A DNA stretch of 64,000 nucleotides from Croceivirga sp. GTDB lineage: Bacteria > Bacteroidota > Bacteroidia > Flavobacteriales > Flavobacteriaceae. Every line of letters starts with the position of its first letter. Within the stretch, counting starts at the first letter, position 1. Made by a program: the position numbers and the translations under genes. The notes under the pieces are model-generated. The model had not been told where the DNA came from. It saw nothing but the letters and a program-made list of their open reading frames with translations, and did not search any database. Of this stretch, positions 10,147 through 27,159 are shown piece after piece. The stretch covers positions 1-64,000 of the forward strand of contig JANQRG010000026.1 of the NCBI GenBank assembly GCA_028284665.1, read 5' to 3'.

Positions 10147-10181
10147 TAATACTATGTTACTCACCTTTAAATAGCGACGAA

Positions 10182-11336
10182 ATGGTCGTACCCATAGTTG
10201 TTGTAGCTTTTAACCGGGTGCATTCTTTAGAGCGATTGCTATATTCTTTGAATATGGCGGATTATCCAAACAACAGCATTCCGTTAATCATTAGTATTGA
10301 TAACAACGGAAAAAATAGGGATGTCTTGGAAGTGGCCAACAAATTCAAATGGCGACATGGTACAAAAAAGGTAAAGTATCAGGAAACGAATTTGGGGCTT
10401 CGTAAACATGTTTTACAATGTGGAGCTATCGCTCGTGATTATGATGGGGTTATTATTTTGGAAGACGATCTCTACGTATCGGAGAATTTTTATCATTTTG
10501 CTCGGGCTGGCCTTTCTTTCTCAAAAGCCAAAGAGTACATAGGCGGAATTTCGCTATATAATCATCAACTCAATGTACACAATAGTTTTGCATTTTCTCC
10601 CCTAGAAGATGGGTATGACAATTGGTATTTTCAGTTTGCTTCTTCATGGGGCCAGGCTTGGACAAATGATCAATTTGACAATTTTGTTACTTGGTACAAT
10701 AATGCACCAAAAATCGACAAAGAGAAGAAAATACCTTCTTATGTAAGAAGTTGGTCCGAAAAATCATGGTTAAAGTATTTCATTGCGTATCTAGTAGAGA
10801 AGGACAAGTATTTTCTATATCCTAAAATATCATTAACTACTAATTTTGGAGATTCAGGAACACATATGAATGAAGTTGACTCGGCATTTCAAGTACCGCT
10901 TTATTTTGGGCGAAAGAAAACATTTGAGTTTAGCGATCTAAACTCATCCCTTGCGGTTTATGATGCTTTTTATGAAAGTAATATTCTTCATAGGGTTCTA
11001 AATCTAGAAAAGGACCAGCTTATTGTTGATCTTTACGGTGAGAAAGACTCTTTTCCGGAAAAAGGTTTCTTAATTTCAAAACAAATATTGAACTACAATA
11101 TTGAAAAAACTTTTGGAAGGTTTTTGCGACCAATGGAAGCCAATATCATTGAAAACATTCAGGGTAGGGATTTTTTCTATTATGATTTAAGCAAAAAAAG
11201 AGAAAATCCTTTTAAGCAACACAAACTTAAGGAAATGCTATTTCACCTTAGAAAGTTGAGCCACAGAAGGTCGTATGAGATTTTCCTGGCGATGTCAAAG
11301 AATAGAATCGAAAACAAGTTAAAAATAAAAAGGTGA
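10182..11336 (+). CDS. GT-A glycosyltransferase, GnT-I/GT2-like
   Basis: A 384-residue glycosyltransferase. The N-terminus reads VPIVVVAFNRVHSLERLL, then LIISIDNNGKN, a GT-A nucleotide-binding start resembling N-acetylglucosaminyltransferase-I-like proteins. The metal-binding acidic motif is VIILEDDLYVS near residues 92-102. A central Trp/Tyr-rich segment (SSWGQAWTNDQF) probably contributes to the acceptor pocket. The C-terminus is basic and may sit at the membrane. Its stop overlaps the GTG start of the acetyltransferase (GTGA), so the two are probably translated together. Sugar specificity is unknown. Confidence 0.78.
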   Translation: MVVPIVVVAFNRVHSLERLLYSLNMADYPNNSIPLIISIDNNGKNRDVLEVANKFKWRHGTKKVKYQETNLGLRKHVLQCGAIARDYDGVIILEDDLYVSENFYHFARAGLSFSKAKEYIGGISLYNHQLNVHNSFAFSPLEDGYDNWYFQFASSWGQAWTNDQFDNFVTWYNNAPKIDKEKKIPSYVRSWSEKSWLKYFIAYLVEKDKYFLYPKISLTTNFGDSGTHMNEVDSAFQVPLYFGRKKTFEFSDLNSSLAVYDAFYESNILHRVLNLEKDQLIVDLYGEKDSFPEKGFLISKQILNYNIEKTFGRFLRPMEANIIENIQGRDFFYYDLSKKRENPFKQHKLKEMLFHLRKLSHRRSYEIFLAMSKNRIENKLKIKR

Positions 11337-12043
11337 CCTATTTTTTGCTTAGAGTTTTCAATTTTTTCTATCGTCACTTGATATCGGCTAAATACAATGT
11401 GAAGCTAGGCCGCAACGTTTACATTAACAGAAATACCATTTTCGAAGGTGGTAATCATTTGGGAAACAATTGTATTATTGCCAACTCGTATTTAGGTTTT
11501 GCATCCTATATTTCTGATAACTCCCAAATCAGACGTTGTAGAATTGGAAGATATTCTTCCCTTGGGCCCGATATTAAGTGTGTTTTTGGTAAACACCCAG
11601 CTGATCTATTTGTAAGTACCCATCCCGTTTTTTTTTCTACGCTCAAGCAGGTTGGTTTTACGTATACACAGGAACAATTGTTTGAGGAGTACGAAAAACC
11701 AGCAGATCAGGAAGGTGGGTATCAAATAGTGATCGGAAATGATGTTTGGATTGGTGCCGGAGTCACAATTATGGATGGGGTAACCATTGGTGATGGTGCT
11801 ATAATCGCGGCCAACGCATTAGTCAACAAAGATGTAGCGCCCTATAGCATTGTGGGAGGCTTACCAGCAAAAAAGATTAAATCACGATTTGATGAAGAAA
11901 CAATAGCATTTCTTTTGGATTTTGAATGGTGGAACAAAGAAAAAGACTGGATCGAGAAAAATGCTTTTCGCTTTAAAAACATCAGTTCCTTTAAGCAATA
12001 TTTCGTTAAAACAGAACCAGGGGAAAATAGTAATGGTAATTGA
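11333..12043 (+). CDS. Left-handed beta-helix O-acyltransferase, CatB/LbH family
   Basis: A 236-residue hexapeptide-repeat acyltransferase, probably acetylating a sugar of the polymer or its precursor. Hexapeptide turns occur in two blocks, about 25-75 and 130-175 (IGNDVWIGAGVTIMDGVTIG). They are followed by the NALVNKDVAPYSIVGGLPAK motif typical of acetyl-CoA-dependent sugar and xenobiotic acetyltransferases. A His-containing loop, FGKHPADLF, sits where the catalytic His is expected. The GTG start at 11333 overlaps the stop of the preceding glycosyltransferase, which ties it to that sugar. The acyl group and target are inferred. Confidence 0.85.
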   Translation: MTYFLLRVFNFFYRHLISAKYNVKLGRNVYINRNTIFEGGNHLGNNCIIANSYLGFASYISDNSQIRRCRIGRYSSLGPDIKCVFGKHPADLFVSTHPVFFSTLKQVGFTYTQEQLFEEYEKPADQEGGYQIVIGNDVWIGAGVTIMDGVTIGDGAIIAANALVNKDVAPYSIVGGLPAKKIKSRFDEETIAFLLDFEWWNKEKDWIEKNAFRFKNISSFKQYFVKTEPGENSNGN

Positions 12044-12076
12044 AGCTATGAATATAAAACTCACGCTATGATTATG

Positions 12077-13186
12077 TTATTGCTTCTTGGCGTCCAGCAT
12101 TTCTAACAACCTCGTCACCACTATTTTCGGGGTGTAATTGTCTATAACCCATTCGCTACCTCTACTACCTATTTCCTGAACGTGTTGATCATCTTTGATG
12201 ATTTTAAAAAATGCCTCTTTATTATCAAAATCAGCTCCTAAATAGTGTTCACCATTTTTGGGCATTACCGGGAGCTTCATGCCATATTTTTGAAAATCCA
12301 AATGCAGTGTACAACAACCGGAGGCAATAGATTCCCAAAGTCGCCATGAGTCAAATTGATATATTCTATCCACTTTGGAAAAAGGAAAAGAACTATCCAA
12401 CTTGAGCATGATTCTGCTTAGATAAACATTTTTCTTTAATTCTAAATTGTGTTTTGCCTTCGCAGAAAAGGCATTTTGCATATACCCTCCTACTGCATTA
12501 GAAACTTTGCTGCTCCCTAACCTATCATAGTACGTTTTGTAATGCCTGCGTCCCGATTGTTCCCAATTCAACATGTCTTCCTTTGAAAAATTCTGTTTTT
12601 CAAAACTATCTACTCTAGGGTCTTTTTCATAATATCCATATACCCTTTTCATGATCTGCGTTTCAAAATGGGAACGTAATGAATGACCTATCCTAAAGTT
12701 GGACAATGCTTTATTCTCGCGCTCTTGCTGTGGTAGAGGGTTTAGGGCCTTTAAAATCCTAGTAGTAAGCCCAAATTGCCAGGGTACGAAGTTCGTGGGG
12801 TATTCCATTTTTTCAGAAAAATGTGCCTTCAATATTAGTTCCGCATGCACCAATTCTTTGCTAAAGCCCGGGGTTAGGTAACCATCTGAAGCGTCCACAA
12901 ATACAAACTTAAAAGGCCTCTTTTTCGAGAATACAATGTCCGGGATTAGATTTTGTTTATCATAGTAATAGAGTACGGCAGAAGAGATTACAAGATCGTA
13001 ATCTTCCAAATCCTCAATGGGTGCCTTGTTTATTAGATAGGTGCCATCAGAAAGCTTCCAATAATCTAAATTGCCTTTAAACATGATGGATAATTCTTTT
13101 AATCCTTCAGCAATAGCGACAATTTCATGTTGATAAGCTGCCTTGTCAGGTGGGCCTTGTGGGTGAACTATAAAATATACTTTCAT
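12077..13186 (-). CDS. Glycosyltransferase-like protein of unknown specificity
   Basis: A 369-residue cytoplasmic protein I do not assign to a named family. It starts MKVYFIVHPQGPPDK. Near residues 280-310 is RLWESIASGCCTLHLDF, resembling the donor-binding E-x-ASGC motif of GT-B and exostosin-like glycosyltransferases. The C-terminus (SRGSEWVIDNYTPKIV) is like the final helix of GT1/GT4 enzymes. The gene is on the strand opposite its neighbours and convergent with the acetyltransferase, with only 33 nt between the stops. It may therefore be separately expressed. It could instead be a regulator-like relative without catalytic activity. Confidence 0.6.
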   Translation of the reverse strand: MKVYFIVHPQGPPDKAAYQHEIVAIAEGLKELSIMFKGNLDYWKLSDGTYLINKAPIEDLEDYDLVISSAVLYYYDKQNLIPDIVFSKKRPFKFVFVDASDGYLTPGFSKELVHAELILKAHFSEKMEYPTNFVPWQFGLTTRILKALNPLPQQERENKALSNFRIGHSLRSHFETQIMKRVYGYYEKDPRVDSFEKQNFSKEDMLNWEQSGRRHYKTYYDRLGSSKVSNAVGGYMQNAFSAKAKHNLELKKNVYLSRIMLKLDSSFPFSKVDRIYQFDSWRLWESIASGCCTLHLDFQKYGMKLPVMPKNGEHYLGADFDNKEAFFKIIKDDQHVQEIGSRGSEWVIDNYTPKIVVTRLLEMLDAKKQ

Positions 13187-13484
13187 TGAACAATTTTGGC
13201 AAGGGGAATATGATTAATGATAATTGTTAAGAAATTAAAAAAAATAAAGGTTCAAAAACCATTTCTCATTTTCTTTCGTAACTACCGAATTAACGAAACA
13301 AGTTAAAGGTAAAACATCCCTTAAAAAAAAATCTATTTATGACAGTTTTTTCCAGAAAAAGAAAAAATAACCAAGGTTTAAACACTAAAAATGAAATTGA
13401 TAGTGTATTTCATCGAATATTTTGATCATTTCATCTATAAAAAATAATTTGTAACTATTTTCGAATCCCAAATCGTAATTGCCT
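13187..13484. other. Divergent intergenic region, no gene seen
   Basis: About 300 AT-rich nt lie between a minus-strand glycosyltransferase-like gene and the plus-strand beta-helix lipoprotein. Promoters for both must be here, but I see no exact TAnnTTTG motif and no strong inverted repeat. Confidence 0.4.
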
Positions 13485-15278
13485 ATGAACTCAAGAACCC
13501 CACGAGTTACATTGTTACTTTTTTTGTTATTTCTTTCATTTTTTACACTCTTCGCTTGCTCTAAAGATCAAGATATTTTTGAACAAGCCATAAATGAAGA
13601 CATACAGAATAATATCGAAAGCAATGAAGAGGAAGAGGAAGATGCTGAACCGATTGATTCCTTAATCACTGTAAATTTAACCCCTGTCCATGATGCCTAC
13701 CTTCAGGATAGTCAAGGATTTGACGAACCGATTGTTAGGGTAGAAAAAGATAAACGCGTTGGATACCTACTTTTCGATTTAAGTGGTATTACCGGGGAAA
13801 TAGAGGAAGTTAGCCTTGAGTTTACTATAGACAGTGATAGCGGTGATGGAACTTTAGAGATCTATCAGGGGCTTTCAACCAACTGGACAGAGCAAAGCAT
13901 ATCAAAACTAAGTGCGCCAAAGGATGATTATTTATTGAGTACAACTAATGGCACTTTTGAGATAGGCAACACAAATACTATAGCCTTAGATAAAAGTAAT
14001 ATTCCAACTGAGTCAATATCATTGATTCTGAAAAAGGTATCTGGAAACGATTTTGCTCTAGCTTCAAAAGAGAGTTCTAGAGAAGATCCTCCAAAGTTAA
14101 TGGTTACATTCAGAGGAACTTATGAGGGACAACCTGAAAATCCTGCAAATAACGAAGATCAAAGTCAGGAGGATGAAATGCCAATTGAAGATACATCCGG
14201 GTATAATCCTGACTGCGATTTAGGTGGTTCCTGTATGACAGCAGATTACTCTTGTTTGGACCCTTCATATCCCGTAATTGAAGAATTCATACAAGCCGGT
14301 GTAATTGGTGGGATTCCCAATGGTTTGCCTATAGCAAAGACCATTACACCTTCAGATGATATTCAACAGGCCATTGATGAAGTAAACTCTAATGGTGGTG
14401 GGGTTATACTTTTTGCAGAAGGAACCTATGTCATCAGAGATGAAATATTTATGAAAAGTAATGTAGTACTGCGTGGAGTAGATCGGGAAAATGTACGATT
14501 GGAATCATTATTACGAGGTGATGATGATACTAAAACACAAACCTTTCTCTTCGACAACACCTCTTATTCTGGAATAGAAAACATGACCTTGTTTTTTAGT
14601 GTACCCAATTATGAACCTATTGATCGGGAAGGTTTAGATGCCGGCGCATGGGACCGATCGTTATTTAGCAATGATCCACACGGTCTTGTAGATCTGTACG
14701 TGACTACCATAGTTATGGAATCGAATTCAAGTAATAATTGGATTGATAATTGTAATGTTTTGGAAAGTGGATGGCACACCATTCGTATACGTGGAAATAA
14801 TAACACTGTTAGAAATACTCTTGTCGATAGGGTATATAATAAAGGTGGTAATGGTAGAGGGTATTTTAATATAATTGGCGATTACAACTTAATCGTGAAT
14901 AGTACCATAAAAAGAATACGACATATAAGTATTGAGCTTGGGGCGGAATACAATGTTTTTTACAACAATGAAATATTCGTTGACGTAAATTTCCATGATG
15001 GTGATGATGGAAACAACTTAATCGAGAATAATAGGATTTTTACTCCTACTTATCATCCATTTCCGGTTTTTACAACTGGGAATTCGGATTTTGGCCACCG
15101 ACTTCCAGGTCCCAACAACCTATGGGTAAACAATGTTGCCAATGGACGACAAAGGGGTGAAATTTATTCCAAGCCAAATACAATCTATCGCCTTTCTCAT
15201 ACATCTTACGAAACTGTTATCGAAACAGATTGGGAAATGCCTGCTTGTAACACATTTTATCCCATGATTCGGCAATAA
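13485..15278 (+). CDS. Surface lipoprotein: CBM96/DNRLRE-like domain plus right-handed beta-helix
   Basis: A 597-residue exported protein. The signal peptide ends in a lipobox with Cys25 (LFACSKD), followed by an acidic, disordered linker. Residues about 55-190 have the layout of a DNRLRE/CBM96-like domain (DAYLQDS, then RVGYLLFDLSG). From about 255 a pectate-lyase-like right-handed beta-helix begins (IQQAIDEVNSNGGGVILFAEG) with many Asn-rich turns (NNTVRNTL, YNLIVNSTI). This fits a polysaccharide lyase or C5-epimerase acting on the locus product. The catalytic residues are not identifiable by eye. ATG 13485 is chosen over TTG 13479. A degraded relative lies at 30062-30730. Confidence 0.82.
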   Translation: MNSRTPRVTLLLFLLFLSFFTLFACSKDQDIFEQAINEDIQNNIESNEEEEEDAEPIDSLITVNLTPVHDAYLQDSQGFDEPIVRVEKDKRVGYLLFDLSGITGEIEEVSLEFTIDSDSGDGTLEIYQGLSTNWTEQSISKLSAPKDDYLLSTTNGTFEIGNTNTIALDKSNIPTESISLILKKVSGNDFALASKESSREDPPKLMVTFRGTYEGQPENPANNEDQSQEDEMPIEDTSGYNPDCDLGGSCMTADYSCLDPSYPVIEEFIQAGVIGGIPNGLPIAKTITPSDDIQQAIDEVNSNGGGVILFAEGTYVIRDEIFMKSNVVLRGVDRENVRLESLLRGDDDTKTQTFLFDNTSYSGIENMTLFFSVPNYEPIDREGLDAGAWDRSLFSNDPHGLVDLYVTTIVMESNSSNNWIDNCNVLESGWHTIRIRGNNNTVRNTLVDRVYNKGGNGRGYFNIIGDYNLIVNSTIKRIRHISIELGAEYNVFYNNEIFVDVNFHDGDDGNNLIENNRIFTPTYHPFPVFTTGNSDFGHRLPGPNNLWVNNVANGRQRGEIYSKPNTIYRLSHTSYETVIETDWEMPACNTFYPMIRQ

Positions 15279-15316
15279 AAACCTATTTTCCATGTTCTTA
15301 ACAATACAAATGCGAG

Positions 15317-15348
15317 AAGACTCCTTAGTTTTAGGAGTCTTTTCATTT
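15317..15348 (+). terminator. Rho-independent terminator after the beta-helix gene
   Basis: Perfect nine-base arms AAGACTCCT and AGGAGTCTT surround a seven-base loop and are followed by TTTCATTT. It lies 39 nt after the stop at 15278 and separates the lipoprotein from the next glycosyltransferase. Confidence 0.8.
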
Positions 15349-15408
15349 GACCACTGAAGCTTTCTAATTAATTGAATAATTTAGCGCTTATTTAAACGCA
15401 CAGTGTTC

Positions 15409-16254
15409 GTGAAAAAGGTAGCTGCTTTACTTACATGCCATAATAGAAAAGATAAGACCCTTAAGTGCTTAGAACATCTCACAAGGGCTTTTAAAAAGAC
15501 TAAATATCCCTTTGTTTTGGATATCTATCTTACGGACGATGGCTCTACTGACGGGACCTCAGAAAAAGTAAAAGAACTATTTCCAAAGGTCATCGTTTTA
15601 GAAGGAAATGGGAATTTGTTTTGGGTAAATGGGATGAATAACTCGTGGAACCATGCCCTAAAGGAGAACTACGATGGTTATCTTTTGATTAATGATGATA
15701 CGTACGTTTTTGATACACTATTTGAGCAAATTGACCTATCAGATAAATCCTGTGTACTTTCATATGGCAAAGAAGGCGTTTATGTGGGAACCACTTTAGA
15801 TGAAAAAAGTGGACGGGTTACTTATGGAGGTTCGGTAATTACCAACCGTATTCTTTATAAGTACTATAGATTGATTCCCAATGGGACTATTCAAAAATGT
15901 GATTTGGGAAATGCCAATATTATGTATGTCCCGAAATCTGTGGTAAAAAAAGTTGGTGTTTTATCCGATGGATATCTTCATGGTATAGCAGATTACGATT
16001 ACACGCTGAAATGTGTATCAAAAAAAGTTCCTGTTGTTATAATGCCTTCTACTAATGGGTATTGTGAATATGATCATGGAGATATGTACCATGAATATGA
16101 GAACAAGTCCCTAAAAGAAAGAATTCGATATTTGCATCACCCTCTAGGAGTAGATTTTAAGTCCAGGCACTTGTATATGAAAAGGTTTTTCCCGGTAAGA
16201 GCCCCCTTTTTTTATCTTGGTGGATGGCTAAAAACTATCTTCCCAAAAACGTAA
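15409..16254 (+). CDS. Family 2 glycosyltransferase
   Basis: A 281-residue GT-A enzyme. It starts KKVAALLTCHNRKDKT. The nucleotide-binding DDGSTDGT lies near 46-53 and the metal-binding LINDDTYVF near 92-100. A C-terminal PLGVDFKSRHLYMKRFF region resembles rhamnosyl/galactosyl GT2 enzymes of capsule loci. GTG 15403 and GTG 15409 are both possible starts; the second gives the usual family N-terminus. It is preceded by a terminator, so it probably has its own promoter. A broken relative with the same GNANI and GVDF(K/G)SR signatures lies at about 27399-27973. Confidence 0.85.
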   Translation: MKKVAALLTCHNRKDKTLKCLEHLTRAFKKTKYPFVLDIYLTDDGSTDGTSEKVKELFPKVIVLEGNGNLFWVNGMNNSWNHALKENYDGYLLINDDTYVFDTLFEQIDLSDKSCVLSYGKEGVYVGTTLDEKSGRVTYGGSVITNRILYKYYRLIPNGTIQKCDLGNANIMYVPKSVVKKVGVLSDGYLHGIADYDYTLKCVSKKVPVVIMPSTNGYCEYDHGDMYHEYENKSLKERIRYLHHPLGVDFKSRHLYMKRFFPVRAPFFYLGGWLKTIFPKT

Positions 16255-16529
16255 AAAATGTTTTTGTTTCTTCGCCATTGCATTTTTCTAAGTCATAGAC
16301 CAGTCATTTTATGATAATCACAGGCCTTTCTAAAACTTAGGCAAGAAATCCCGTTTGCTATATCCTCGGGAGAATCAGCTTATTTTTTGGAAATCATAAA
16401 ATTGTCTCGAAAAACGATATCGTATTATTTCAATCTGAATAATATTTGTATGCTAACACACCGTAGTTCTTCAGATTAAAAGAAATGGGCAAAGACTAAG
16501 CTCCTGTTTATAAGGCTTGCATTCGTGAT

Positions 16530-17783
16530 TTAAACAATCATCCCAGCGGCTACTGTTTCGTTAGTCGCATCATCAATAAGGATAACACTTCCCGTAATTC
16601 TGTTCTCTCGGTAAGGATCAATCATTAATGGTTTGGTGGTTCTTAGGCGCACTTTGCAGATATCGTTCATCCCTAATTTAAGATCCTCCGTATTCCTATG
16701 TAAAGTATTGATATCTATCTTATAGACCACCTCTTTGATCATGGCCTTTTGTTCATTGGATGTATGCCTTATAGTATACTTGGCCCTGGGCTTTGCAGGA
16801 TTGTTGTGCAACCAACACAGCATCACCTCCACATCCTGATTTGCCTCCGGTTGATTGTTGGCCCGCACGATCATATCACCACGGCTGATGTCGATATCAT
16901 CCTCAAGGGTCATGGAAATCGACATCGGGGCAAAAGCCTCCTCCAACTCGCCGTTAAAGGTATCCAGTGACTTGATCTTTGAGGTAAACCCGGAGGGCAA
17001 TACCACAACTTCATCCCCAGTTCTAAACATCCCACTGGATATTCTTCCAGCATAACCTCTATAGTCACGGTACGACTCACTTTGAGGGCGCAAAACCGTT
17101 TGGACAGGAAAACGTGCGTCTACCTTGTTGATATCACTGCTAATATGCAAGGTCTCCAGCGTGTGCAATAACGGAGCACCCAGGTACCAGGCCATATTCT
17201 CAGATCGGTTAACCACATTATCCCCCAATAACGCACTTATTGGGATGAATCGAATGTCCTGAACCAATAATTTGGATGAAAACTCCTCAAATTGGGTAAT
17301 TACTTTGTTGTAGGCTCCTTCATCAAAATCTACCAGGTCCATTTTGTTAATACAAACCAAAATGTGAGGGATCTGGAGTAATGATGCGATAAAGGCATGA
17401 CGCTTGGTCTGTTCAATAACTCCATGGCGTGCATCCACCAATATAATTGCAGCATTTGCCGTAGAAGCACCCGTTACCATATTACGTGTGTACTGGATAT
17501 GGCCTGGGGTATCTGCTATGATAAATTTACGTTTGGGAGTGGTGAAGTAACGGTAGGCCACATCTATTGTAATGCCTTGCTCCCGCTCATCCCTAAGACC
17601 ATCCGTGAAAAGCGCTAAATCTACTCCTTCATGACCCTTCTGTTTACTTGTGTTCTCTATAGCCGCCAATTGATCTTCGAAAATCGATTTGGAATCATAT
17701 AACAAGCGACCAATCAAGGTACTCTTGCCATCGTCTACACTGCCAGCTGTGGTAAAACGTAATAACTGATTGTTGTCCAACAT
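16530..17783 (-). CDS. cysN: Sulfate adenylyltransferase large subunit (GTPase)
   Basis: With CysD this 417-residue GTPase drives formation of adenosine 5'-phosphosulfate from ATP and sulfate. The elongation-factor-type G domain shows GSVDDGKST at about 15-23, DTPGHIQY, and NKMD. Two beta-barrel domains follow. It is shorter than E. coli CysN (475) and has no fused APS kinase, which is encoded separately by cysC. It is the last gene of the cysQ-DUF2061-cysC-cysD-cysN unit, 12 nt after cysD. A convergent 275-nt gap separates it from the GT2 gene. The setting points to sulfate activation for polymer sulfation. Confidence 0.95.
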   Translation of the reverse strand: MLDNNQLLRFTTAGSVDDGKSTLIGRLLYDSKSIFEDQLAAIENTSKQKGHEGVDLALFTDGLRDEREQGITIDVAYRYFTTPKRKFIIADTPGHIQYTRNMVTGASTANAAIILVDARHGVIEQTKRHAFIASLLQIPHILVCINKMDLVDFDEGAYNKVITQFEEFSSKLLVQDIRFIPISALLGDNVVNRSENMAWYLGAPLLHTLETLHISSDINKVDARFPVQTVLRPQSESYRDYRGYAGRISSGMFRTGDEVVVLPSGFTSKIKSLDTFNGELEEAFAPMSISMTLEDDIDISRGDMIVRANNQPEANQDVEVMLCWLHNNPAKPRAKYTIRHTSNEQKAMIKEVVYKIDINTLHRNTEDLKLGMNDICKVRLRTTKPLMIDPYRENRITGSVILIDDATNETVAAGMIV

Positions 17784-17795
17784 AGTTGCCTAAAC

Positions 17796-18701
17796 TTAAA
17801 AATATCCCTGTTTTTTTCTGTCTTCCATCGCGGTTTCCGAACGTTTGTCATCACTACGGTTTCCACGCTCCGTTTGCCGCATTGCAGATACTTCCTGCGC
17901 TATCTTCTCCACAGTATCTGCTTCAGATTCAATACCTCCGGTAATGGTGATATCACCCAAGGTCCTAAATCGAATTTTCTTGCGTTGTATTTTTTCTGAT
18001 TCTTCAAGCAGAAGAAATTCAGAATTAGGTATCCAGGAATTGTTTCGCCAAACCACTTCGCGTTCATGAGCAAAGTACAGGGAAGGAATCTCAATATTTT
18101 CCCTATCGATATAGTTCCAAACATCCATTTCTGTCCAATTACTGATCGGGAAAGCACGGAAATGCTCCCCTTCAAAGTGCTTACCATTAAACAGATTCCA
18201 TAACTCTGGACGTTGGTTTTTAGGATCCCATTGGCCAAAATCATCACGATGGGAGAAAAAACGCTCTTTTGCTCGGGCCTTTTCCTCATCTCTTCTACCC
18301 CCTCCGATAGCACAATCCACCTTATGTTCAGCTATCGCATCCAGCAAAGTGGTAATTTGAAGCGCATTTCGAGTTGCATTCTTTCCTTTCTCTTCAGCAA
18401 CCCTACCGAGATCTATAGATTCTTGCACAGATCCTACTATCAGGCGCACTCCTAGATCCCGAATCAGATCATCCCGAAACTTGATCGTTTCAGGAAAATT
18501 ATGGCCCGTATCAACATGCATTAAAGCAAAAGGAATTTTACTCGGAAAAAATGCCTTCTTCGCCAGGTGTGTTACCACGATGGAATCCTTTCCCCCTGAA
18601 AACAATATCACAGGATTATCAAACTGGGCCCATACCTCGCGCATCACGTACATTGCCTCGGATTCAAGCTCGTCCAAATAGTTTAAAAAATACTTACTCA
18701 T
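17796..18701 (-). CDS. cysD: Sulfate adenylyltransferase small subunit
   Basis: A 301-residue PP-loop ATP pyrophosphatase subunit that adenylates sulfate to APS. The PP-loop SGGKDS lies at 35-40. GGGRRDEEKARAKE and the C-terminal RKKIRFRTLGDITITGG segment are CysD hallmarks. Its ATG at 18701 overlaps the TGA of cysC (ATGA), which implies coupled translation. No cysH, cysI or cysJ homologue is present in the window, so its product is probably committed to PAPS for sulfotransferases, although export to a distant reductive pathway cannot be excluded. Confidence 0.96.
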   Translation of the reverse strand: MSKYFLNYLDELESEAMYVMREVWAQFDNPVILFSGGKDSIVVTHLAKKAFFPSKIPFALMHVDTGHNFPETIKFRDDLIRDLGVRLIVGSVQESIDLGRVAEEKGKNATRNALQITTLLDAIAEHKVDCAIGGGRRDEEKARAKERFFSHRDDFGQWDPKNQRPELWNLFNGKHFEGEHFRAFPISNWTEMDVWNYIDRENIEIPSLYFAHEREVVWRNNSWIPNSEFLLLEESEKIQRKKIRFRTLGDITITGGIESEADTVEKIAQEVSAMRQTERGNRSDDKRSETAMEDRKKQGYF

Positions 18702-19294
18702 GACCTGATAACTAGTTTTGCTTTAATCGTATTATAAATCTTAATTACCGATTCTTCAACTGAATTCAAATGCGTCACTTCTACATCCGCAGAGGTTGGC
18801 GCTTCGTACGGTGAGGAAATTCCAGTCATATCTTTGATCTCGCCAGACCTCGCCTTTTTGTACAAGCCTTTAACATCCCGCCGTTCACATTCTTCCAAAC
18901 TAACATTGACAAATACTTCAACGTAATTGTCCAAACCAACAGTATCTCGTATTAAGGCCCTATCTCTTTGAAATGGTGCTACAAAAGCAGCAAGTACTAC
19001 AAGACCTGCATCCACAAATAGCTTTGCAACTTCGCCAATGCGACGGTTATTCTCTGAGCGATCTTCTGCGCTAAAACTCAAATCCTTGTTGATCCCGCTT
19101 CGTATGTTATCCCCATCCAAAACGTATGTACTAATACCCTCTGAAAATAGTTTTTCTTCCAAGGCGTTGGCAATAGTCGATTTGCCTGAGCCTGACAAGC
19201 CAGTGAAAAAGATTAAAAATGAGTTATGCCCTTGGGCCTTGCGGCGTTCATTCCGGCCAATCTTATAGTGATGCTTTACGATGTTCTTCTCCAT
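18698..19294 (-). CDS. cysC: Adenylylsulfate (APS) kinase
   Basis: A 198-residue kinase that phosphorylates APS at the 3' position to give PAPS, the universal sulfate donor. The Walker A GLSGSGKST lies at 32-40. DGDNIRSGINKDLSFS and the FVAPFQRDRALIRD lid region are typical of CysC. The start at 19294 lies 19 nt inside the end of the DUF2061 gene, and the stop overlaps cysD. Linking APS kinase to two sulfotransferase genes, rather than to PAPS reductase, is the main argument for a biosynthetic sulfation role. Confidence 0.96.
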   Translation of the reverse strand: MEKNIVKHHYKIGRNERRKAQGHNSFLIFFTGLSGSGKSTIANALEEKLFSEGISTYVLDGDNIRSGINKDLSFSAEDRSENNRRIGEVAKLFVDAGLVVLAAFVAPFQRDRALIRDTVGLDNYVEVFVNVSLEECERRDVKGLYKKARSGEIKDMTGISSPYEAPTSADVEVTHLNSVEESVIKIYNTIKAKLVIRS

Positions 19295-19707
19295 TTTCTT
19301 GTTCTAGCACGTTTATCTAAACCAAAATTGATCTTATACCACGCACGCTCATGTAGATAATACAATACCATCTTCGTCACCACCTCAACAACACCAATCT
19401 TTAGACCGGTAAAAGGGTTACCGGATATTATCCAAGAAAGCAAAATAGTATCCAGAGTTCCTATCCCTCGCCATGTAACCGTCTTCAACAAATGGCGACG
19501 CTGGCTATTTACAACATCAACGTTTAACCATAAACGTTCATGCAAATAATACAATACCATCTTGGTCAATAACTCAGATGCACCTATTTGAAGTCCCATA
19601 AGAGGATCTCCTGTAATCACCCAAGAAAGTATTACCGTGTCAACAGTACCTACAAAACGCCATGTAATTGTTTTGGCTAAATGTCGCTTGTAAGAAACTC
19701 TTCTCAT
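19276..19707 (-). CDS. Tandem DUF2061 membrane protein
   Basis: A 143-residue small basic protein made of two copies of the DUF2061 domain, about residues 7-62 and 70-125. Each copy contains a T(I/V)TWR start, a hydrophobic segment (DTxxLSWxIxG) and a KMVLYYLHER end. Each copy has one or two membrane-spanning stretches. It lies inside the sulfate-activation operon: its ATG overlaps the cysQ stop (TAATG) and its 3' end overlaps cysC by 19 nt. The function of DUF2061 is not established. A role in sulfate or nucleotide handling at the membrane is a guess from operon position. Confidence 0.85.
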   Translation of the reverse strand: MRRVSYKRHLAKTITWRFVGTVDTVILSWVITGDPLMGLQIGASELLTKMVLYYLHERLWLNVDVVNSQRRHLLKTVTWRGIGTLDTILLSWIISGNPFTGLKIGVVEVVTKMVLYYLHERAWYKINFGLDKRARTRKWRRTS

Positions 19708-20504
19708 TACTTTTTGACTACAAAGTGACTATTCAACAAATCTTCTTTATTATATCTAAGCTCCTGGTCGGTTTGCCGGGAAATTACTTGAAGTCCAACT
19801 GCCTTGCAAATTGCATGACCAGCAGCAGTATCCCACTCCATGGTTGGGGCAAAACGAGGATAAAGGTCAGCACTACCTTCTGCAACCAGACAAAATTTTA
19901 AGGAGCTACCTTTAGAAACGATTTCTATTTCTTTGTATTGCTCTTTTAATTGGTCAATAAAGGCTTTCGTATCTTCATTCATATGCGATCTACTACCTAC
20001 AACGGTAATTTCGCCATTGGTGGAGTTTTTAAATCCAATTTCGTGTCGTTTCTGGATCATCGCTAAATCAAAATGATGTTTTTCGTCCAAAACTACTTTG
20101 TACGCTTTTTTTTCAGAAACCTGTCCTATATATAATTCTTTGGTCACAGGAACATATATCACTCCGAAAATGGGCTTCCCATCTTCTATTAAGGCGATAT
20201 TAACTGTAAACTCCCCATTACGCTTGATGAACTCCTTTGTTCCATCCAAAGGATCAACTAACCAACAGCGGGTCCATTGCTTACGGTGCCCATAGTCCAC
20301 TTCCTTATTTTCTTCGCTAATGATAGGAATATCTAAAACGTTCAAGTGCGACATTATCGCTTTGTTAGAAGCAATATCGGCCAAAGTTAGTGGAGAGTTG
20401 TCCTCCTTGATTTCGGTGCCAAAATCCCTGGAGTCATATACTTTTAAAATTGCCTTCCCACCATCTATGGCAGCATAAATTGCTTTTTCAAAATTGCTAT
20501 TCAT
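19707..20504 (-). CDS. cysQ: 3'(2'),5'-bisphosphate nucleotidase
   Basis: A 265-residue Mg-dependent phosphatase that splits PAP (the by-product of sulfotransferases) to AMP, and can also act on PAPS. The inositol-monophosphatase-family motifs are visible: SEEN near 63, DPLDGT at 84-89 and WDTAAGHAI near 223. It is the first gene of the PAPS operon and is translationally coupled (TAATG) to the DUF2061 gene. PAP removal is needed where PAPS is used for sulfation, which agrees with the sulfotransferase genes nearby. A TAATTTTG promoter-like element lies just upstream. Confidence 0.95.
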   Translation of the reverse strand: MNSNFEKAIYAAIDGGKAILKVYDSRDFGTEIKEDNSPLTLADIASNKAIMSHLNVLDIPIISEENKEVDYGHRKQWTRCWLVDPLDGTKEFIKRNGEFTVNIALIEDGKPIFGVIYVPVTKELYIGQVSEKKAYKVVLDEKHHFDLAMIQKRHEIGFKNSTNGEITVVGSRSHMNEDTKAFIDQLKEQYKEIEIVSKGSSLKFCLVAEGSADLYPRFAPTMEWDTAAGHAICKAVGLQVISRQTDQELRYNKEDLLNSHFVVKK

Positions 20505-20512
20505 CTTAATAT

Positions 20513-20520
20513 CAAAATTA
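20513..20520 (-). promoter_or_regulatory. TAnnTTTG -7 element candidate for the PAPS operon
   Basis: Read on the minus strand this is TAATTTTG, an exact Bacteroidota -7 match 8 nt before the cysQ ATG. The leader would be only a few nucleotides, and no good -33 TTG is seen, so the call is tentative. Confidence 0.3.
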
Positions 20521-20793
20521 AAACAGTGTGTTCTTTACACCTTAAATCAATGGATTTGCCGTCAGCACGAGATTTTCCAACTCCTTTTTAAAATGCGATG
20601 CAAAGTAAATGCTTTTCTTTTAGCATAGTTGATAAATTACCTTAGAACACATATAATTTCGATGTATTGTTCAATAAGACTAATTTTATGCCCATATAAC
20701 GAAATAACCATTGAGTCTGTACAATTAGTATTAATATCGCACTGCAATATTAAAAGTGCAGTTTCTACGTTTTTTACAACAAAATAGTTTTAA

Positions 20794-21906
20794 ATGAAAA
20801 AAGCTTTGATTACCGGGGCTACTGGCCAAGATGGGGCTTATTTAAGTGAATTCCTATTGAGGAAAGGATACCAAGTACATGGCCTAAAAAGACGATCATC
20901 TCTTTTTAACACAGATAGAATAGATCATCTGTATGAGGATCCTCACATAGAAGGCAGAAGGTTTATCCTCCACTATGGAGATATGACGGATAGTACCAAC
21001 CTTATTCGTTTAATTCAGGAAATTCAGCCGGATGAAATCTACAATCTGGCAGCGATGAGCCATGTTAAGGTATCTTTTGAAGTACCAGAATATACCGCCA
21101 ATGCCGATGGTATCGGGACCTTAAGAATTTTGGATGCCGTTAGATTTCTTGGTTTAGAGAAAAAAACAAGGATTTATCAAGCGTCTACTTCCGAATTATA
21201 CGGTAAAGTTCAGGAAGTCCCGCAATCGGAAACTACACCTTTCTATCCTCGTAGTCCCTATGCAGTGGCTAAAATGTATGCCTATTGGATAACGGTTAAT
21301 TACCGAGAGGCCTACAACATGTTTGCTTGTAATGGTATTCTCTTTAACCACGAGTCTCCTATAAGAGGTGAAACTTTTGTCACCAGAAAGATTACTCGTG
21401 CGACCTCGCGAATTGCTTTAGGACTCCAGGAAAAATTTTATCTCGGGAATTTGGATGCACAACGGGATTGGGGTCATGCAAAGGATTATGTCAGAATGAT
21501 GTGGATGATTTTACAAGCGGATCAACCAGAAGACTGGGTAATTGCAACGGGTAAAACGACAACCGTAAGAGACTTTGTACGAATGAGTTTTGCTTATGTT
21601 GGGATTGAGCTTGATTTTGTAGGCGAGGGTGTTCACGAAAAAGCGTATATAAAATCGTGTAACAATCCTGATTATCAGTTGGAAATTGGAAAAGAAGTCT
21701 TATCTGTTGACGAAAAGTACTTCAGACCCACGGAAGTTGATTTACTAATAGGAGATCCCACAAAGGCGAAGACAAAATTGGGTTGGACAGCTGAATATGA
21801 ATTGCAAGATTTAGTCGACGATATGATGCAGAGTGATTTAAAACTCATGCAAAAGGATCAATATGTCAAAGATGGCGGTTATCCCATACTAAACTACTAC
21901 GAATAG
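20794..21906 (+). CDS. gmd: GDP-mannose 4,6-dehydratase, copy 2
   Basis: A second 370-residue Gmd, the same length as the copy at 7901 and differing at roughly 45 positions by hand count. All active-site residues (T132, E134, Y156, K160) and the GATGQDG motif are kept. Most changes lie after residue 205, in the substrate-binding half. No second GDP-fucose synthase follows. It could be redundant, separately regulated, or feed another 6-deoxyhexose such as rhamnose or a 4-amino sugar; no dedicated reductase or aminotransferase is visible to decide. It stands alone between the PAPS operon and the second half of the locus. Confidence 0.95.
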
Positions 21907-22437
21907 TGGTCATTGGTCATTTGTTGCATCTTATTATTCTTTCAGATTTCAATTTCTTAATCAATAAAATTGTTCGATAAAATTTTCGAAGCACGTTTGG
22001 AATCCTTGTCGGGAGTACTATTCTGAAAAAACCCCAAAGAAAAGGATATTAAAACTCTACGGCCCTGAACAGGATGGCACTTGGTTTAAAAAATACTAAC
22101 GCTGTAGAGGATTCTTTGCCAAAGAAATACCTGGGCTAATAATATGTCTAACAACTTGTATCGAGCGGATTTTGTCTTTCAAAATCCACGACAATGATGT
22201 TCATCCGTTTACAGGAACAGGGTTAAAGGCTTTTCTTAGGCGGATATGTGGGACACCTCTACAAAGGAGAACAAGGATTTTAAGGATCCTTATCGAAAAG
22301 TCGAGAGGAAAGAAATGCTCAGATTAACTGCGCTAAGGGGAAAAATATGTCCCCATTGCAGACCTATCATTGCTCTTAAAAAGAAATGATCGTTACCATA
22401 CCTGGTATATAAAAAAGCACAAACAGTACGATTAATC
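21907..22437. other. Long gene-poor gap with possible unrecognised gene remnants
   Basis: This 531-nt gap has no ORF above 60 codons. Two short coding-looking plus-strand stretches stand out. One, about 21970-22100, contains ILKLYGPEQDGTWFKKY before a stop. The other, about 22240-22389, is open and Lys/Arg-rich and ends at TGA 22389. I do not recognise either. Since two neighbouring gaps in this locus contain clear pseudogenes, this may be a third, older remnant. Confidence 0.35.
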
Positions 22438-23091
22438 TCATTTTTCAAATTCGTATTCAAAATATTCAATATCTACAGCAAACTTCTTTCCTATTATCTC
22501 CTTCGTTTTCTCATTGTAATATTCCGTATAGTGTTTTCTAGAAGAAAACTTATTAGAATTTAAGTGTGACAGTTCTTGATTAATCCCTAATTCATTTGCT
22601 ATATGCCCCCAGTGTTCCTTCAAATTCTCAAACTTACCAATGAAATCTACGGACACATTTCCTTCCGAATCCTTAAACCAGTCAAGCTGATTGCGTTTTT
22701 GCGAGGGATAAATACAAGTATCACTGCTGTAATTTATCCAGTTTACAAATTCCTCAAATGACATTTTATCCTTCATCTGTATACCCTCTTTACGATTATA
22801 TAGTGATACAGTTCTTGACCATGGATTTCTGACAAATCCAAATTTGTAATAGGTATCAAATACTTTTGCTCCTATTTTTTCTTTGACAAAACCGGGTGTC
22901 ACCAAGGAATATATTTTGTTGATATATCGATAATTCTTTGAACCCTCAAATGGGAATGAAGAAATAACCTTTTCCTTTACTTCCATTAAATCCAGATGAG
23001 GTCTGTAGGGACGCCCGATTATTCCGCGTATACTAGATGATCCTGTCTTAGGAACCTCTAAAAAAATACACTTGTACTTTTTGCTAATCAC
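22438..23091 (-). CDS. Sulfotransferase, Sulfotransfer_2-like
   Basis: A 217-residue PAPS-dependent sulfotransferase predicted to sulfate a carbohydrate. The 5'-phosphosulfate-binding loop PKTGSSS lies at 14-20 and the 3'-phosphate site VRNPWSRTVSLYN near 88-100, both in the order seen in carbohydrate sulfotransferases such as chondroitin and heparan types. There is no signal peptide, so it acts in the cytoplasm on lipid-linked or nucleotide-linked precursors. The start is GTG 23091. It lies divergent from the polymerase gene and 1.9 kb from the PAPS operon that would supply its donor. Confidence 0.88.
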   Translation of the reverse strand: MISKKYKCIFLEVPKTGSSSIRGIIGRPYRPHLDLMEVKEKVISSFPFEGSKNYRYINKIYSLVTPGFVKEKIGAKVFDTYYKFGFVRNPWSRTVSLYNRKEGIQMKDKMSFEEFVNWINYSSDTCIYPSQKRNQLDWFKDSEGNVSVDFIGKFENLKEHWGHIANELGINQELSHLNSNKFSSRKHYTEYYNEKTKEIIGKKFAVDIEYFEYEFEK

Positions 23092-23298
23092 TGTTACTAT
23101 TATTTTTGAACAATATTATTGATATCATTTGTTTTCTAGACACAAAAGAGTCAAAAAGTCTGTTTTATCGACAATCTTGTCAAAATCATCTAATCAAAAA
23201 AGAATTTGAATAATTTAGCGGTATCTTGACCAAGTTTTTGGTTATACTATTGGCGACCAATATAATAATTCTACCCTGTCATTTTTGTTCATAACATT

Positions 23299-24519
23299 AT
23301 GATTTTTAATAAATCCCTTTCACATATGGGTTGGTTAATAGGAGTGCTACTTCTGCTACACCTGATCAATCCGTTTGATATGGCTCATATTTTTGCTTAC
23401 CTACTAATTCCTATCATCGCCTTAACAAAAAAGCAGTATCTTATAGAATTACTTGACTTTGATTTTTTGCTTCTTCTTCTATTTGGATTCACTTACTCCG
23501 CTTTTAATGTATTTGGAGAGCACAAGGGGGTTCAGTATCTCTTTATGCAAGCTTTGTTTCCTGCCTTTTTTTATCTTCTCGGAAAGTTTCTGTTAATAAA
23601 GCATCCTTCACAATCAGATCTAAGAAACATACTTTTTTTACTGGCATTAGCCTTTACAATCACTTCATTGGTTTCGGTATTGTTGGATCTAGTAAAAGGA
23701 GGTTTTGCGCAAACCGGTAGATTGATTGAAAATTTTTGGACAGGAAAAAAAATAAAATCGACAGGTATGGCAGGTTATTTGACCTACGTGTTAACTATAC
23801 CCGCTCTAATTATCGGATCAAATGAGAAGGCACAAAAATTAAAACAAGTAATACTTATAGGCCTTTATTTAATATCCCTTATTTGTGTATTTAGACTGGG
23901 GAGTAGAACCGGTATTGTAATAACTTTTTTGTCGTTTGGAATAGGAATTGTTATTCACATGTATCTTAAATCGGCAAAAAAAAACCTACAACTTTTTTTT
24001 AGATTAGTCCTTGCGCTATCTATTTTCATTTTGTTCGTACCAATAAACTTAGAATCCAAATATTTTTCAACGTTGGGGCATAGGTTACAAAGCAAGGGTA
24101 CTTCCAGCAACGAATCGGCGGGAGGGAGGACAGAATTATGGAAAAATGCCATAGAAAATTTTCAAAAACACCCTCTTGGCTGGCAGGCTAAAAAACACTC
24201 ACACAATTTATGGCTAGACGTCGCAAAAGTTGGTGGGATAATTCCCTTTATGCTGCTTTTGATATTTAACTTTCGAAATTTAAAAAATATAAAGAAGCTG
24301 CTAGCTCTGAAAAAAGATAATACGTACTTAGAGATAAAACTGATTTTTGCTTTGTTTACTCTAGCTCCTTTCATTCAATTTTCAGTCGAGCCAATTGTAG
24401 AAGGCAGCTTATATAAACTTACATTTTTTATTATGATCCAAGGAATGTTGAAAAAACATCTTGAAATGGAATGGAATAGGAATAAAGTTGATGTTGCTTC
24501 TCCAATACCTACTAAATAG
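23299..24519 (+). CDS. wzy: Wzy-like polysaccharide polymerase / O-antigen ligase family
   Basis: A 406-residue integral membrane protein with about ten to twelve hydrophobic segments. The Wzy_C-type periplasmic loop region near 250-310 contains HPLGWQAKKHSHNLWLDVAK, where the His-Asn-x-W pattern is characteristic of O-antigen ligase/polymerase proteins. It probably joins repeat units at the periplasmic face. The flippase gene follows 169 nt later on the same strand, so this pair makes a Wzx/Wzy set. A ligase role is possible, but the capsule context and Wza/Wzc favour polymerase. Confidence 0.85.
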   Translation: MIFNKSLSHMGWLIGVLLLLHLINPFDMAHIFAYLLIPIIALTKKQYLIELLDFDFLLLLLFGFTYSAFNVFGEHKGVQYLFMQALFPAFFYLLGKFLLIKHPSQSDLRNILFLLALAFTITSLVSVLLDLVKGGFAQTGRLIENFWTGKKIKSTGMAGYLTYVLTIPALIIGSNEKAQKLKQVILIGLYLISLICVFRLGSRTGIVITFLSFGIGIVIHMYLKSAKKNLQLFFRLVLALSIFILFVPINLESKYFSTLGHRLQSKGTSSNESAGGRTELWKNAIENFQKHPLGWQAKKHSHNLWLDVAKVGGIIPFMLLLIFNFRNLKNIKKLLALKKDNTYLEIKLIFALFTLAPFIQFSVEPIVEGSLYKLTFFIMIQGMLKKHLEMEWNRNKVDVASPIPTK

Positions 24520-24688
24520 TTTTTTCTATTCATAAACATTTTTTCGGTAGATATGGATATCTTTTGTCAAAATAGAACAAGTACTAACCTTATTTGGTTC
24601 AATTCATATCAGGCTCATTGCTTTGGCTTTTCTAAGGAGTTCTCCTTGCCCTATGAATTAATCTTATTAATCCTAAAAACCCAGAGTT

Positions 24689-26134
24689 GTGTCTCTAGGT
24701 AACAAAATGTTCAAAGGCGCCTTGTGGAATGCTTTTGAACGGTTTTCGACTCAATCAATTCAGTTTGTTGTAAATATTATCTTAGCAAGACTCCTTACTC
24801 CGGAGGACTACGGGGTAATCGGTTTAATCGTCATTTTCATAGTAATTTCTGAGGTCTTCGTTGATAGCGGGTTCACCAAAGCGCTTATACAGAAAAAGGA
24901 TAGGACTACAGAAGATATATCAACCGTATTTCTTTTCAATCTTTTAATTAGCATTTGTTGTTATATAGTACTGTGGTTTTCAAGTTCACTTATCGCAGAT
25001 TTTTTTGAAATATCCATTTTAAAAATCTTACTAAGAGTTATGGCATTGTCCCTGATAACCAATGCCTTATTTGCAGTTCCCCGTACTTTGTTTTCGATTA
25101 GGATGGATTTCAAAACTCCTGCGAAGATTTACTTCGTTGCAACGGTAATGTGTGGGTCCATAGCAATCTTGTTAGCATATCTTGGTTATGGAGTATGGGC
25201 ATTGGTATGGCAAACACTTATAAGGTCCTTAATAATATTTTTGGGTACTTGGTTGAGTTTGAAGTGGTATCCCAAACTAGTTTTTTCCAAGTCCTCATTT
25301 AGACATATGTTTTCGTATGGCTCAAGATTACTACTGGCTAGTTTACTCCAAAGGATTTTTAGTAAGTTTAATCAATTTCTTATCGGAAAGTATATTGGTG
25401 CCAGTGGCCTAGGGATATTCTCAAGAAGCGCACAATTCACAAATTTCATTTTTTTTACCTTTAGCTCGATAACCAATAATGTATTTTTGCCCTCTTTGGC
25501 ACCCTTGCAGGACAACAAAAAGATCCTTACTCAGCAGACAAAAAGAATTATCTCTATAAGTACATTAGTATCCCTACCAGTCTTTATCAGTTTATTCGTA
25601 TTGGCCGAGCCTTTGGTTTTAATTCTTTTAACAGAAAAATGGATAATGACTGTGCCTATTATTCAAATTTTTTGTGTCTCTAAATTTATAACGACACTTT
25701 CAAATATCAATGTTAATCTGCTATACGTGCTCGGTAAGACGAATCTTGTACTTCGGCAGGAGTATTTCAAGATTGCAGTCAGGATAGCGTTGGTCATACC
25801 GGCATTAAAATATGGTCTTATCTATATAGCACTAGCGGAATTAATTTCCTCCTTTATACACTTTTTCATTAATAGTTATTATCCTGGTAAATTCATGAAT
25901 TTCGGAGCTTTAAAACAGCTCAGATCGATTGGCTTAGTCTTAATATTTGGTGCGTTAATGCTGGTTGTTATGTTAGCGATATCCTCTAATATCGAGAACG
26001 ACTATTTAAAGATCGTTTTTTCTTCTTTAATCGGTGCAACAACTTATTTGCTTGCTATTTATAAAGCAAACATTCCAGAATACCATTTGATCTATTCAAA
26101 AATTAAGGATCAAGTAGGGAGAAAAAAGACTTAA
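24689..26134 (+). CDS. wzx: Wzx-type polysaccharide flippase
   Basis: A 481-residue membrane protein of the polysaccharide-transport/MATE-like family that moves lipid-linked repeat units across the inner membrane. The N-terminus (KMFKGALWNAFERFSTQSIQF, ILARLLTPEDYGVIGL) is the classic family start. About 12-14 transmembrane helices span the length. The start is GTG 24689, giving MSLGNKMFKG; ATG 24707 is an alternative. Its stop overlaps by a few bases the stop of the convergent fucosyltransferase-like gene. Confidence 0.93.
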   Translation: MSLGNKMFKGALWNAFERFSTQSIQFVVNIILARLLTPEDYGVIGLIVIFIVISEVFVDSGFTKALIQKKDRTTEDISTVFLFNLLISICCYIVLWFSSSLIADFFEISILKILLRVMALSLITNALFAVPRTLFSIRMDFKTPAKIYFVATVMCGSIAILLAYLGYGVWALVWQTLIRSLIIFLGTWLSLKWYPKLVFSKSSFRHMFSYGSRLLLASLLQRIFSKFNQFLIGKYIGASGLGIFSRSAQFTNFIFFTFSSITNNVFLPSLAPLQDNKKILTQQTKRIISISTLVSLPVFISLFVLAEPLVLILLTEKWIMTVPIIQIFCVSKFITTLSNINVNLLYVLGKTNLVLRQEYFKIAVRIALVIPALKYGLIYIALAELISSFIHFFINSYYPGKFMNFGALKQLRSIGLVLIFGALMLVVMLAISSNIENDYLKIVFSSLIGATTYLLAIYKANIPEYHLIYSKIKDQVGRKKT

Positions 26135-27129: not shown

Positions 27130-27159
27130 AAATTGAAGTTTATAAGGCCAAAATTTCAA

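Follow-up and report, generated by a model that had tools for sequence, protein, structure and literature searches.

The operon and the surrounding polysaccharide locus

The window, by which we mean the whole 64,000-nucleotide stretch that was analysed, carries a five-gene operon on the minus strand. NCBIfam profiles (CysN, CysD, APS kinase and CysQ) and a Pfam profile (DUF2061) were used to evaluate its proteins, and the operon, whose genes and coordinates had already been given in the first-pass annotation, was confirmed as follows.

19707..20504, minus strand: cysQ, 3'(2'),5'-bisphosphate (PAP) nucleotidase, 265 aa; TIGR01331 266.5 bits (cut-off 228.8), DPLDGT motif
19276..19707, minus strand: tandem DUF2061 membrane protein with two repeats, 143 aa; PF09834 149.6 bits (cut-off 23.1) in two stretches
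18698..19294, minus strand: cysC, APS kinase, 198 aa; TIGR00455 241.8 bits (over cut-off), GLSGSGKS motif
17796..18701, minus strand: cysD, ATP sulfurylase small subunit, 301 aa; TIGR02039 408.6 bits (over cut-off), SGGKDS motif
16530..17783, minus strand: cysN, ATP sulfurylase large subunit, 417 aa; TIGR02034 556.2 bits (over cut-off), GSVDDGKST motif

By profile, CysD, CysN and APS kinase were all present with intact motifs, as a PAPS-making cysDNC set would require. The cysC gene was the only PF01583 match in a whole-genome search. The genes had been described as overlapping, which holds for three of the four junctions (1, 19 and 4 bases), but cysD and cysN are separated by 12 bases. The region 5' of cysQ was compared with what we take to be the -7/-33 promoter consensus; it gave a single -7-like match, separated by 8 bases from the cysQ start, and no -33 element, which was not convincing as a promoter.

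The operon lies inside a polysaccharide locus, which also contains two sulfotransferase genes.

444..31654, strand not assigned: surrounding polysaccharide locus, based on Pfam matches, with its extent drawn by us
22438..23091, minus strand: sulfotransferase (Sulfotransfer_2); PF03567 67.4 bits, PKTGSSS loop; the only PF03567 match in the genome
29230..30009, plus strand: sulfotransferase (Sulfotransfer_1); PF00685 95.1 bits, YPKSGNTW loop; the only PF00685 match in the genome

Pfam matches in the locus comprised chain-length and export proteins, UDP-sugar and GDP-mannose enzymes, and glycosyltransferases. The two sulfotransferase genes, previously said to flank the operon, do share its locus but lie 1.9 and 8.7 kb past cysQ, both on that side. 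The Sulfotransfer_1 protein had PDB relatives among the SULT enzymes (best E 7.9e-13), and the Sulfotransfer_2 protein had no PDB match at E <= 0.01; the roles of the PKTGSSS and YPKSGNTW loops in the two enzymes are presumed.

The predicted model of the DUF2061 protein consisted of four long helices (mean pLDDT 87.8), and a fold search against the PDB returned no match at E <= 0.001. The literature searched contained passing mentions only of DUF2061 and no mention of COG3205, which we take to be its COG number. The idea that this protein is the sole sulfate importer was unsupported, because the genome has 7 PF00916 matches (two frames each matched in two pieces) and 3 PF00939 matches; the transporter searches covered 38 genomes.

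Sulfate reduction genes elsewhere in the genome

No PAPS reductase or sulfite reductase gene was found within the window, as the first-pass annotation had noted, but both CysH and sulfite reductase are encoded elsewhere in the genome. That annotation had named a cysH/cysI set lacking its own ATP sulfurylase as evidence against a module dedicated to sulfation, and the search of the genome for cysH, cysI and further cysDNC copies recovered an intact cysH/sulfite-reductase/siroheme locus without ATP sulfurylase on contig C7. A whole-genome PF01507 search detected the cysD of the operon and no second CysD, and no Sat-type ATP sulfurylase was found; a second cysDN may lie outside the assembly, which comprises 51 contigs at 97.3% completeness.

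The CysH on contig C7 has no Fe-S cysteine pairs and scored below the curated cut-offs for PAPS reductase (TIGR02057, 117.2 versus 254.2 bits; PRK02090, 128.4 versus 154). It is the substrate used by this CysH that would decide if cysC takes part in cysteine synthesis as well.

Exchange between two arrangements in the genus

In 8 of the 11 genomes of the same genus, cysH adjoins cysD and no cysC was found. The old arrangement is a DUF2061-cysH-cysD-cysN block with an Rrf2 gene on one side and the sulfite reductase gene on the other. In the genome studied here and two others, this block is replaced by a single divergent cysH; in the new arrangement, cysQ, the tandem DUF2061 gene, cysC, cysD and cysN stand in the polysaccharide locus, and CysDN is of a separate lineage. 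Comparison of the DNA (G004 with G002 and G007; G000 with G001) placed the edges of the exchange within about 31 bases of the genes. The sulfite reductase tree followed the genus, whereas the CysH and CysD trees followed the arrangement (G038, which has cysD without cysC and was labelled type A by default, was placed inside the type B lineage). The type of CysD matched that of CysH in 11/11 genus members. Independent pairs numbered only 4, giving a p of 0.125 at best. Close relatives seem to have switched between the two arrangements several times. As a separate observation, G002, the partner of G004, is a single-contig genome.

No APS kinase match was found in 17 genomes with the old block, and their CysH is Fe-S-less. 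The CysH proteins of G006 and G023 were tested for the CC pair. G035 is an exception, having the cysC operon and an Fe-S CysH plus an Fe-S-less CysH on the old side. At 10 diagnostic positions of CysH, the E. coli PAPS reductase has 3 residues of the old type, 3 of the new type and 4 of neither, and the NCBIfam profiles did not separate the two CysH groups.

cysC and sulfotransferases across 60 genomes

Among 60 genomes, 20 had both cysC and a sulfotransferase, 2 had cysC only, 4 had a sulfotransferase only and 34 had neither (p 4.8e-10 by a Fisher test, which takes genomes as independent when they are not). The sulfotransferase families searched were PF00685 and PF03567, with 12/14 PF03567 genomes over the cut-off; cysC was called in relatives at E <= 1e-20, and an unusual APS kinase would therefore be missed. 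The coordinates showed that cysC is not beside cysD in 4 genomes, in 3 of which it is <6 kb from a sulfotransferase. Among these 60 genomes, G016, G027 and G028 keep the old block and have cysC alone, near a sulfotransferase; in G017, G019, G037, G042, G049 and G050 the operon is accompanied by a CysH of the Fe-S (APS) type; and G004 carries cysC together with the new CysH yet gave neither a PF00685 nor a PF03567 match. No CysH was seen in 5 of the 18 genomes that have cysC and cysD in one operon (one of the five only 84% complete), which closes the CysH route from the operon to cysteine in those genomes.

In ten relatives the type B operon is likewise set among genes for sugar nucleotides and export, with sulfotransferases making up five of the neighbours (115 of 184 listed proteins used), and type A blocks are surrounded by Met/Cys genes; these tallies took ORFs of 130 to 899 aa and the 25 most frequent families out of 88 and 103. 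In a scan of genome contigs, loci were chosen by tandem DUF2061 and the best 80 of at least 569 were kept; cysD lay within the fetched flank (<=10 kb) in 63 and cysC in 62. The linkage of the operon genes with tandem DUF2061 is far beyond chance.

Discussion

The operon layout itself is common in Flavobacteriaceae. The gene order is the same in genomes such as those of Flagellimonas, Robiginitalea, Formosa and Salinimicrobium, and the operon described here does not differ from them in this respect. In our view, the interesting parts are the coupled exchange of cysH and the activation operon, of which no account was found in the literature searched, and the occurrence of an Fe-S-less CysH where no APS kinase was detected.

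We believe, with a probability of roughly three in four, that the operon is a shared sulfate-activation hub and is not reserved for sulfation. The sulfate-activating supply of this marine Flavobacteriaceae genome probably goes to polymer sulfation and to cysteine synthesis alike, because the only sulfate-activating enzymes detected sit in a sugar-polymer cluster beside sulfate-attaching enzymes. Judging from the enzyme families, CysDN would make APS, CysC would then make PAPS, and CysQ would remove PAP. The two sulfotransferases of the locus would use PAPS to sulfate a polysaccharide, the polymer being their presumed target. With no other ATP sulfurylase detected, the reductase locus on contig C7 would have to draw on this CysDN as well, unless the cell relies on reduced sulfur, and the sulfation operon would have taken over primary sulfate activation.

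The first-pass annotation had read the operon as a module for sulfation rather than cysteine synthesis. The sulfation role is well supported by the sulfotransferases of the locus, the co-occurrence of sulfotransferases with cysC, the closeness of cysC to a sulfotransferase in genomes where it is not beside cysD, and the five operon genomes that show no CysH; the dedication is not supported for cysDN here, given the sole CysD, the lack of a detected Sat and the cysH on contig C7. A fully dedicated operon, feeding sulfotransferases only while cysteine comes from reduced sulfur or a missed ATP sulfurylase, would fit the position within the polysaccharide locus, the association of cysC with sulfotransferases and the five operon genomes without CysH, but we regard it as unlikely in view of the intact reductase locus here, which has no cysDN of its own, and of the failure to find another CysD or a Sat. 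Still less credible is an ordinary assimilatory operon placed in the polysaccharide locus by accident, with unrelated sulfotransferases. The operon does hold the only ATP sulfurylase found, and old-type relatives need cysDN for assimilation; yet the type B operons of ten relatives have the same kind of neighbourhood, distinct from that of type A, and cysC tracks sulfotransferases.

There is also an appreciable, though minority, chance of a split use, in which CysDN is shared and CysC and CysQ serve sulfation alone, since the CysH of this genome, like that of its cysC-less relatives, would reduce APS. The Fe-S-less CysH of the 17 genomes without an APS kinase match indicates that this fold can apparently work without CysC, and a moss study shows an Fe-S-less enzyme, APR-B of Physcomitrella, to have APS as its substrate (PMC2275785). 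The tracking of sulfotransferases by cysC, the three genomes with the old block and a lone cysC, and the six that combine the operon with an Fe-S CysH point the same way. However, split use leaves unexplained the joint change of cysH allele and activation operon seen in all 11 genus members, and G004 has cysC without a match to either sulfotransferase family.

Within the shared-hub reading, APS would be the substrate of the old Fe-S-less CysH, which could then do without CysC, and PAPS that of the new one. We put it slightly short of even odds that this substrate, APS (old) or PAPS (new), is why both loci change together, and it is the likely reason that we can name. More tentatively still, we speculated that in this genus the PAPS operon for polysaccharide sulfation goes with a rewired primary sulfur metabolism, in which one cysH allele at a second locus takes the place of the housekeeping block DUF2061-cysH-cysD-cysN and the substrate of CysH shifts between APS and PAPS; the old-type CysH may then correspond, in bacteria, to the Fe-S-less APS reductase of the moss. 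The two are alike as CysH relatives that lack the cysteine pairs, the bacterial one in genomes where no APS kinase matched, and the substrate was shown for the moss enzyme only (PMC2275785).

Dedicated modules offer a further comparison. The nodPQ genes of rhizobia, relatives of CysDN and CysC, serve the sulfation of an exported saccharide and are extra copies besides the housekeeping genes; in contrast, no second copy was found here. In Xanthomonas oryzae, raxP and raxQ encode ATP sulfurylase and APS kinase and supply PAPS to the sulfotransferase raxST, which is in an operon with export genes (PMC4216712), whereas here the PAPS genes themselves are in a polysaccharide locus and include the only cysDN found. 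A nearby sulfotransferase is shared with modules of the raxPQ/nodPQ kind, but a separate ATP sulfurylase for assimilation was not found here (one CysD, no Sat in the 97.3% complete genome). The searches made found no literature on sulfotransferases with cysC or PAPS in Flavobacteria or Bacteroidetes. A Kordia study describes cysND-cysH-sir without cysC in Kordia algicida and K. zhangzhouensis, a pathway termed incomplete by its authors, and cysC with an extra cysND elsewhere in K. antarctica (PMC7477175); K. antarctica retains both of its cysND sets, against a single one in this genome.

Location in a polymer locus does not by itself show that a PAPS operon is dedicated, and here the operon looks like the only entry of sulfate into the cell. 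The G004/G002 and G000/G001 pairs amount to a natural exchange experiment, and the substrate choice of the reductases is directly testable. If the proposed shift in substrate is true, genomes that are currently taken as incomplete because they lack cysC would count as complete. Flavobacteriaceae that lack cysC, such as those of the Kordia study, may have been misjudged as incapable of sulfate assimilation.

Sulfur Genes in the Genome

The first-pass annotation claimed that the PAPS-forming operon is dedicated to polymer sulfation rather than cysteine synthesis. For cysDN the exclusion of cysteine synthesis is not supported, because the genome contains cysH and sulfite reductase without an ATP sulfurylase of their own, a finding named beforehand as contradicting it. 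In the whole genome (4.59 Mb, 51 contigs, 97.3% complete), PF01507 had two matches, the window CysD and the CysH on another contig (C7), and the only APS kinase was the window cysC. No Sat-type ATP sulfurylase was found in the whole-genome search of this 97.3% complete assembly, and sulfite reductase was matched solely next to the C7 cysH. The NCBIfam matches near this cysH were a sulfite/nitrite reductase-like protein, uroporphyrinogen-III methyltransferase, a siroheme synthase N-terminal domain, a thioredoxin-reductase-like protein, an Rrf2 regulator and an O-succinylhomoserine sulfhydrylase-like enzyme. By eye, two further genes there resemble metH. Neither cysD nor cysN was present in the 19.9 kb stretch around it. 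The 696 aa sulfite-reductase-like protein at L003:6914-9004 has a C-terminal extension past the reductase models, whose matches stop near residue 532; by eye, this extension is HEPN-like.

The Operon and Its Surroundings

The five annotated genes were confirmed, with intact motifs and profile scores above the cut-offs.

15403-16254, plus strand: bordering gene
16530-20504, minus strand: cysQ, tandem DUF2061 (19276-19707), cysC, cysD and cysN
20794-21906, plus strand: bordering gene

Because both bordering genes are on the plus strand, the five genes seem to form a separate unit. They are surrounded by genes for export, sugar nucleotides and glycosyltransferases. The two sulfotransferase genes said to flank the operon do exist, but both are on the cysQ side; the sole PF00685 match and the sole PF03567 match of the genome are inside the window. 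The polysaccharide locus also has two GDP-mannose-dehydratase-like genes, at 7901-9013 (profile match) and 20794-21906 (by eye), and the former adjoins a gene resembling, by eye, GDP-fucose synthase. The dehydratase-like pair and the synthase-like gene suggest that the polymer may contain fucose. A CBM96 protein is encoded within the synthesis locus at 13479-15278; it also resembles pectate lyase weakly, at a score under the cut-off.

Two Arrangements of cysDN

Among the relatives, cysDN occurred in two arrangements. The order DUF2061-cysH-cysD-cysN (type A, old-type CysH) was found in 20/20 fetched loci, with sulfite reductase downstream in 17/20 and methionine and cysteine genes as neighbours. 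The order cysQ-2xDUF2061-cysC-cysD-cysN (type B, in the genus with a new-type CysH encoded elsewhere) was found in 11/11 loci of the same family (ten relatives and the window). Its neighbours were mostly sugar-nucleotide and polymer genes (PF13469 and PF00685, each 5/115 proteins). The type A and type B CysD, and likewise CysN, formed separate lineages in the trees. None of the 60 genomes (our own and 59 relatives) had two full CysD matches; K. antarctica, however, is reported to have two cysND sets (PMC7477175). In Salinimicrobium sediminis (L177, among the best 80 of at least 569 loci), the type B genes are present in two copies within about 11 kb. Extra membrane-protein genes lie between cysC and cysD (L162:11132-12106, L164:11157-12134) and between cysD and cysN (L164:13335-16235); by eye, the inserted proteins are like polymer-modifying membrane enzymes.

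DUF2061 is a family without known function. Within the bacterial family it adjoins cysDN in both arrangements, as a single domain with cysHDN (L124-L143) and in tandem in type B (window and L104-L113). It was absent in 5/7 type B loci from other families of the order and next to the lone cysC of G016, G027 and G028. It was lost from the assimilation locus together with cysDN in five genomes (G000, which is the genome holding the window, and G004, G008, G024 and G034) and retained in G035. Among the best 80 of at least 569 loci, tandem DUF2061 with cysQ and without cysDN was found in uncultured Bacteroidetes (L202, L207, L208, L212, and L206 with cysC 4 kb away), and in three Poseidoniales/Marine Group II loci (L217-L219) the stretch retrieved contained tandem DUF2061 but none of the cys genes. 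A membrane role in sulfate or nucleotide traffic is our guess.

cysC and Sulfotransferases

PF01583 was matched in 22/60 genomes, PF00685 in 23/60 and PF03567 in 14/60. Counting either of the last two as a sulfotransferase, 20 genomes had both cysC and sulfotransferase, 2 had cysC alone (G004, G037), 4 had sulfotransferase alone (G015, G039, G041, G043) and 34 had neither (p 4.8e-10, genomes treated as independent). The same table was 19/2/2/30 for genomes at least 90% complete and 13/1/1/22 within the family. Of the 20 genomes having both, 12 have a sulfotransferase no more than 11 kb from cysC. Where cysC is beside cysD (18 genomes), CysH was not found in 5 (G018, G025, G046, G056, G058), so the operon there does not serve the CysH route to cysteine.

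Substrate of CysH

As a usual rule, CysH without Fe-S cysteine pairs requires PAPS. The CC pair was absent from all 20 type A CysH and CxxC from all 18 examined, and 17/20 type A genomes had no PF01583 match at E <= 1e-20, so the PAPS required by this rule could not be made there. Those 17 (among L124-L143) would have a bacterial APS reductase lacking Fe-S, or else another PAPS source. A moss enzyme shows that APS reduction is possible without the cluster (PMC2275785). From these findings we infer that old-type CysH would reduce APS. For the new type PAPS may be the substrate, because two substrate-loop positions are S and G in 6/6, as in the E. coli PAPS reductase; they are N and R in 20/20 of the old type. 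Over 10 diagnostic positions, the E. coli enzyme favours neither type, whereas Fe-S enzymes share 4 with the new type and 1 with the old. Profiles did not separate old from new CysH.

Exchange at the Assimilation Locus

In the genus, eight genomes are type A and three type B (G000, G004, G008), and CysH type matches CysD type in 11/11; the type A locus was read in 7/8, and G010 was assigned by coordinates. In the type B trio, the assimilation locus is Rrf2-cysH-sulfite reductase, without DUF2061, cysD and cysN. The DNA of G004 is 94% identical to that of G002 or G007 up to a point 27 bases short of cysH, and identity resumes, at 91 to 93%, some 31 bases ahead of the sulfite reductase match. 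The intervening stretch is a single cysH in G004 and about 3.2 kb in G002. G000 and G001 share the same edges, 3 bases inside the start of cysH and 1 base past that of sulfite reductase. Within the exchanged stretch, alignment is confined to short cysH pieces (68 to 70%).

In the sulfite reductase tree, the genus was grouped (100/99); G000 paired with G001, and G004 stood next to G002 and G007. A constraint uniting five type B rows was rejected (p-AU 4.6e-51). The Rrf2 tree gave the same pairings, with the genus not clearly grouped. In the CysH tree, G000, G004 and G008 came together (99/98), joined by G024 and G034 (96/96) and weakly by G022 (88/48). A single clade united all 20 type A CysH (98/95), and G035 had its Fe-S-less CysH on their side (89/65).

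The coupling of CysH type with the activation operon is clean, though it rests on few events: of 4 independent pairs on the sulfite reductase tree, CysH type went in the same direction in 3 or 4 and in the opposite direction in 0 (p 0.125 at best). The operon layout is common and its chemistry is known; no description of the activation operon and the reductase being exchanged together was found in the literature searched. Whichever CysH substrate holds, CysDN is probably common to sulfation and assimilation.
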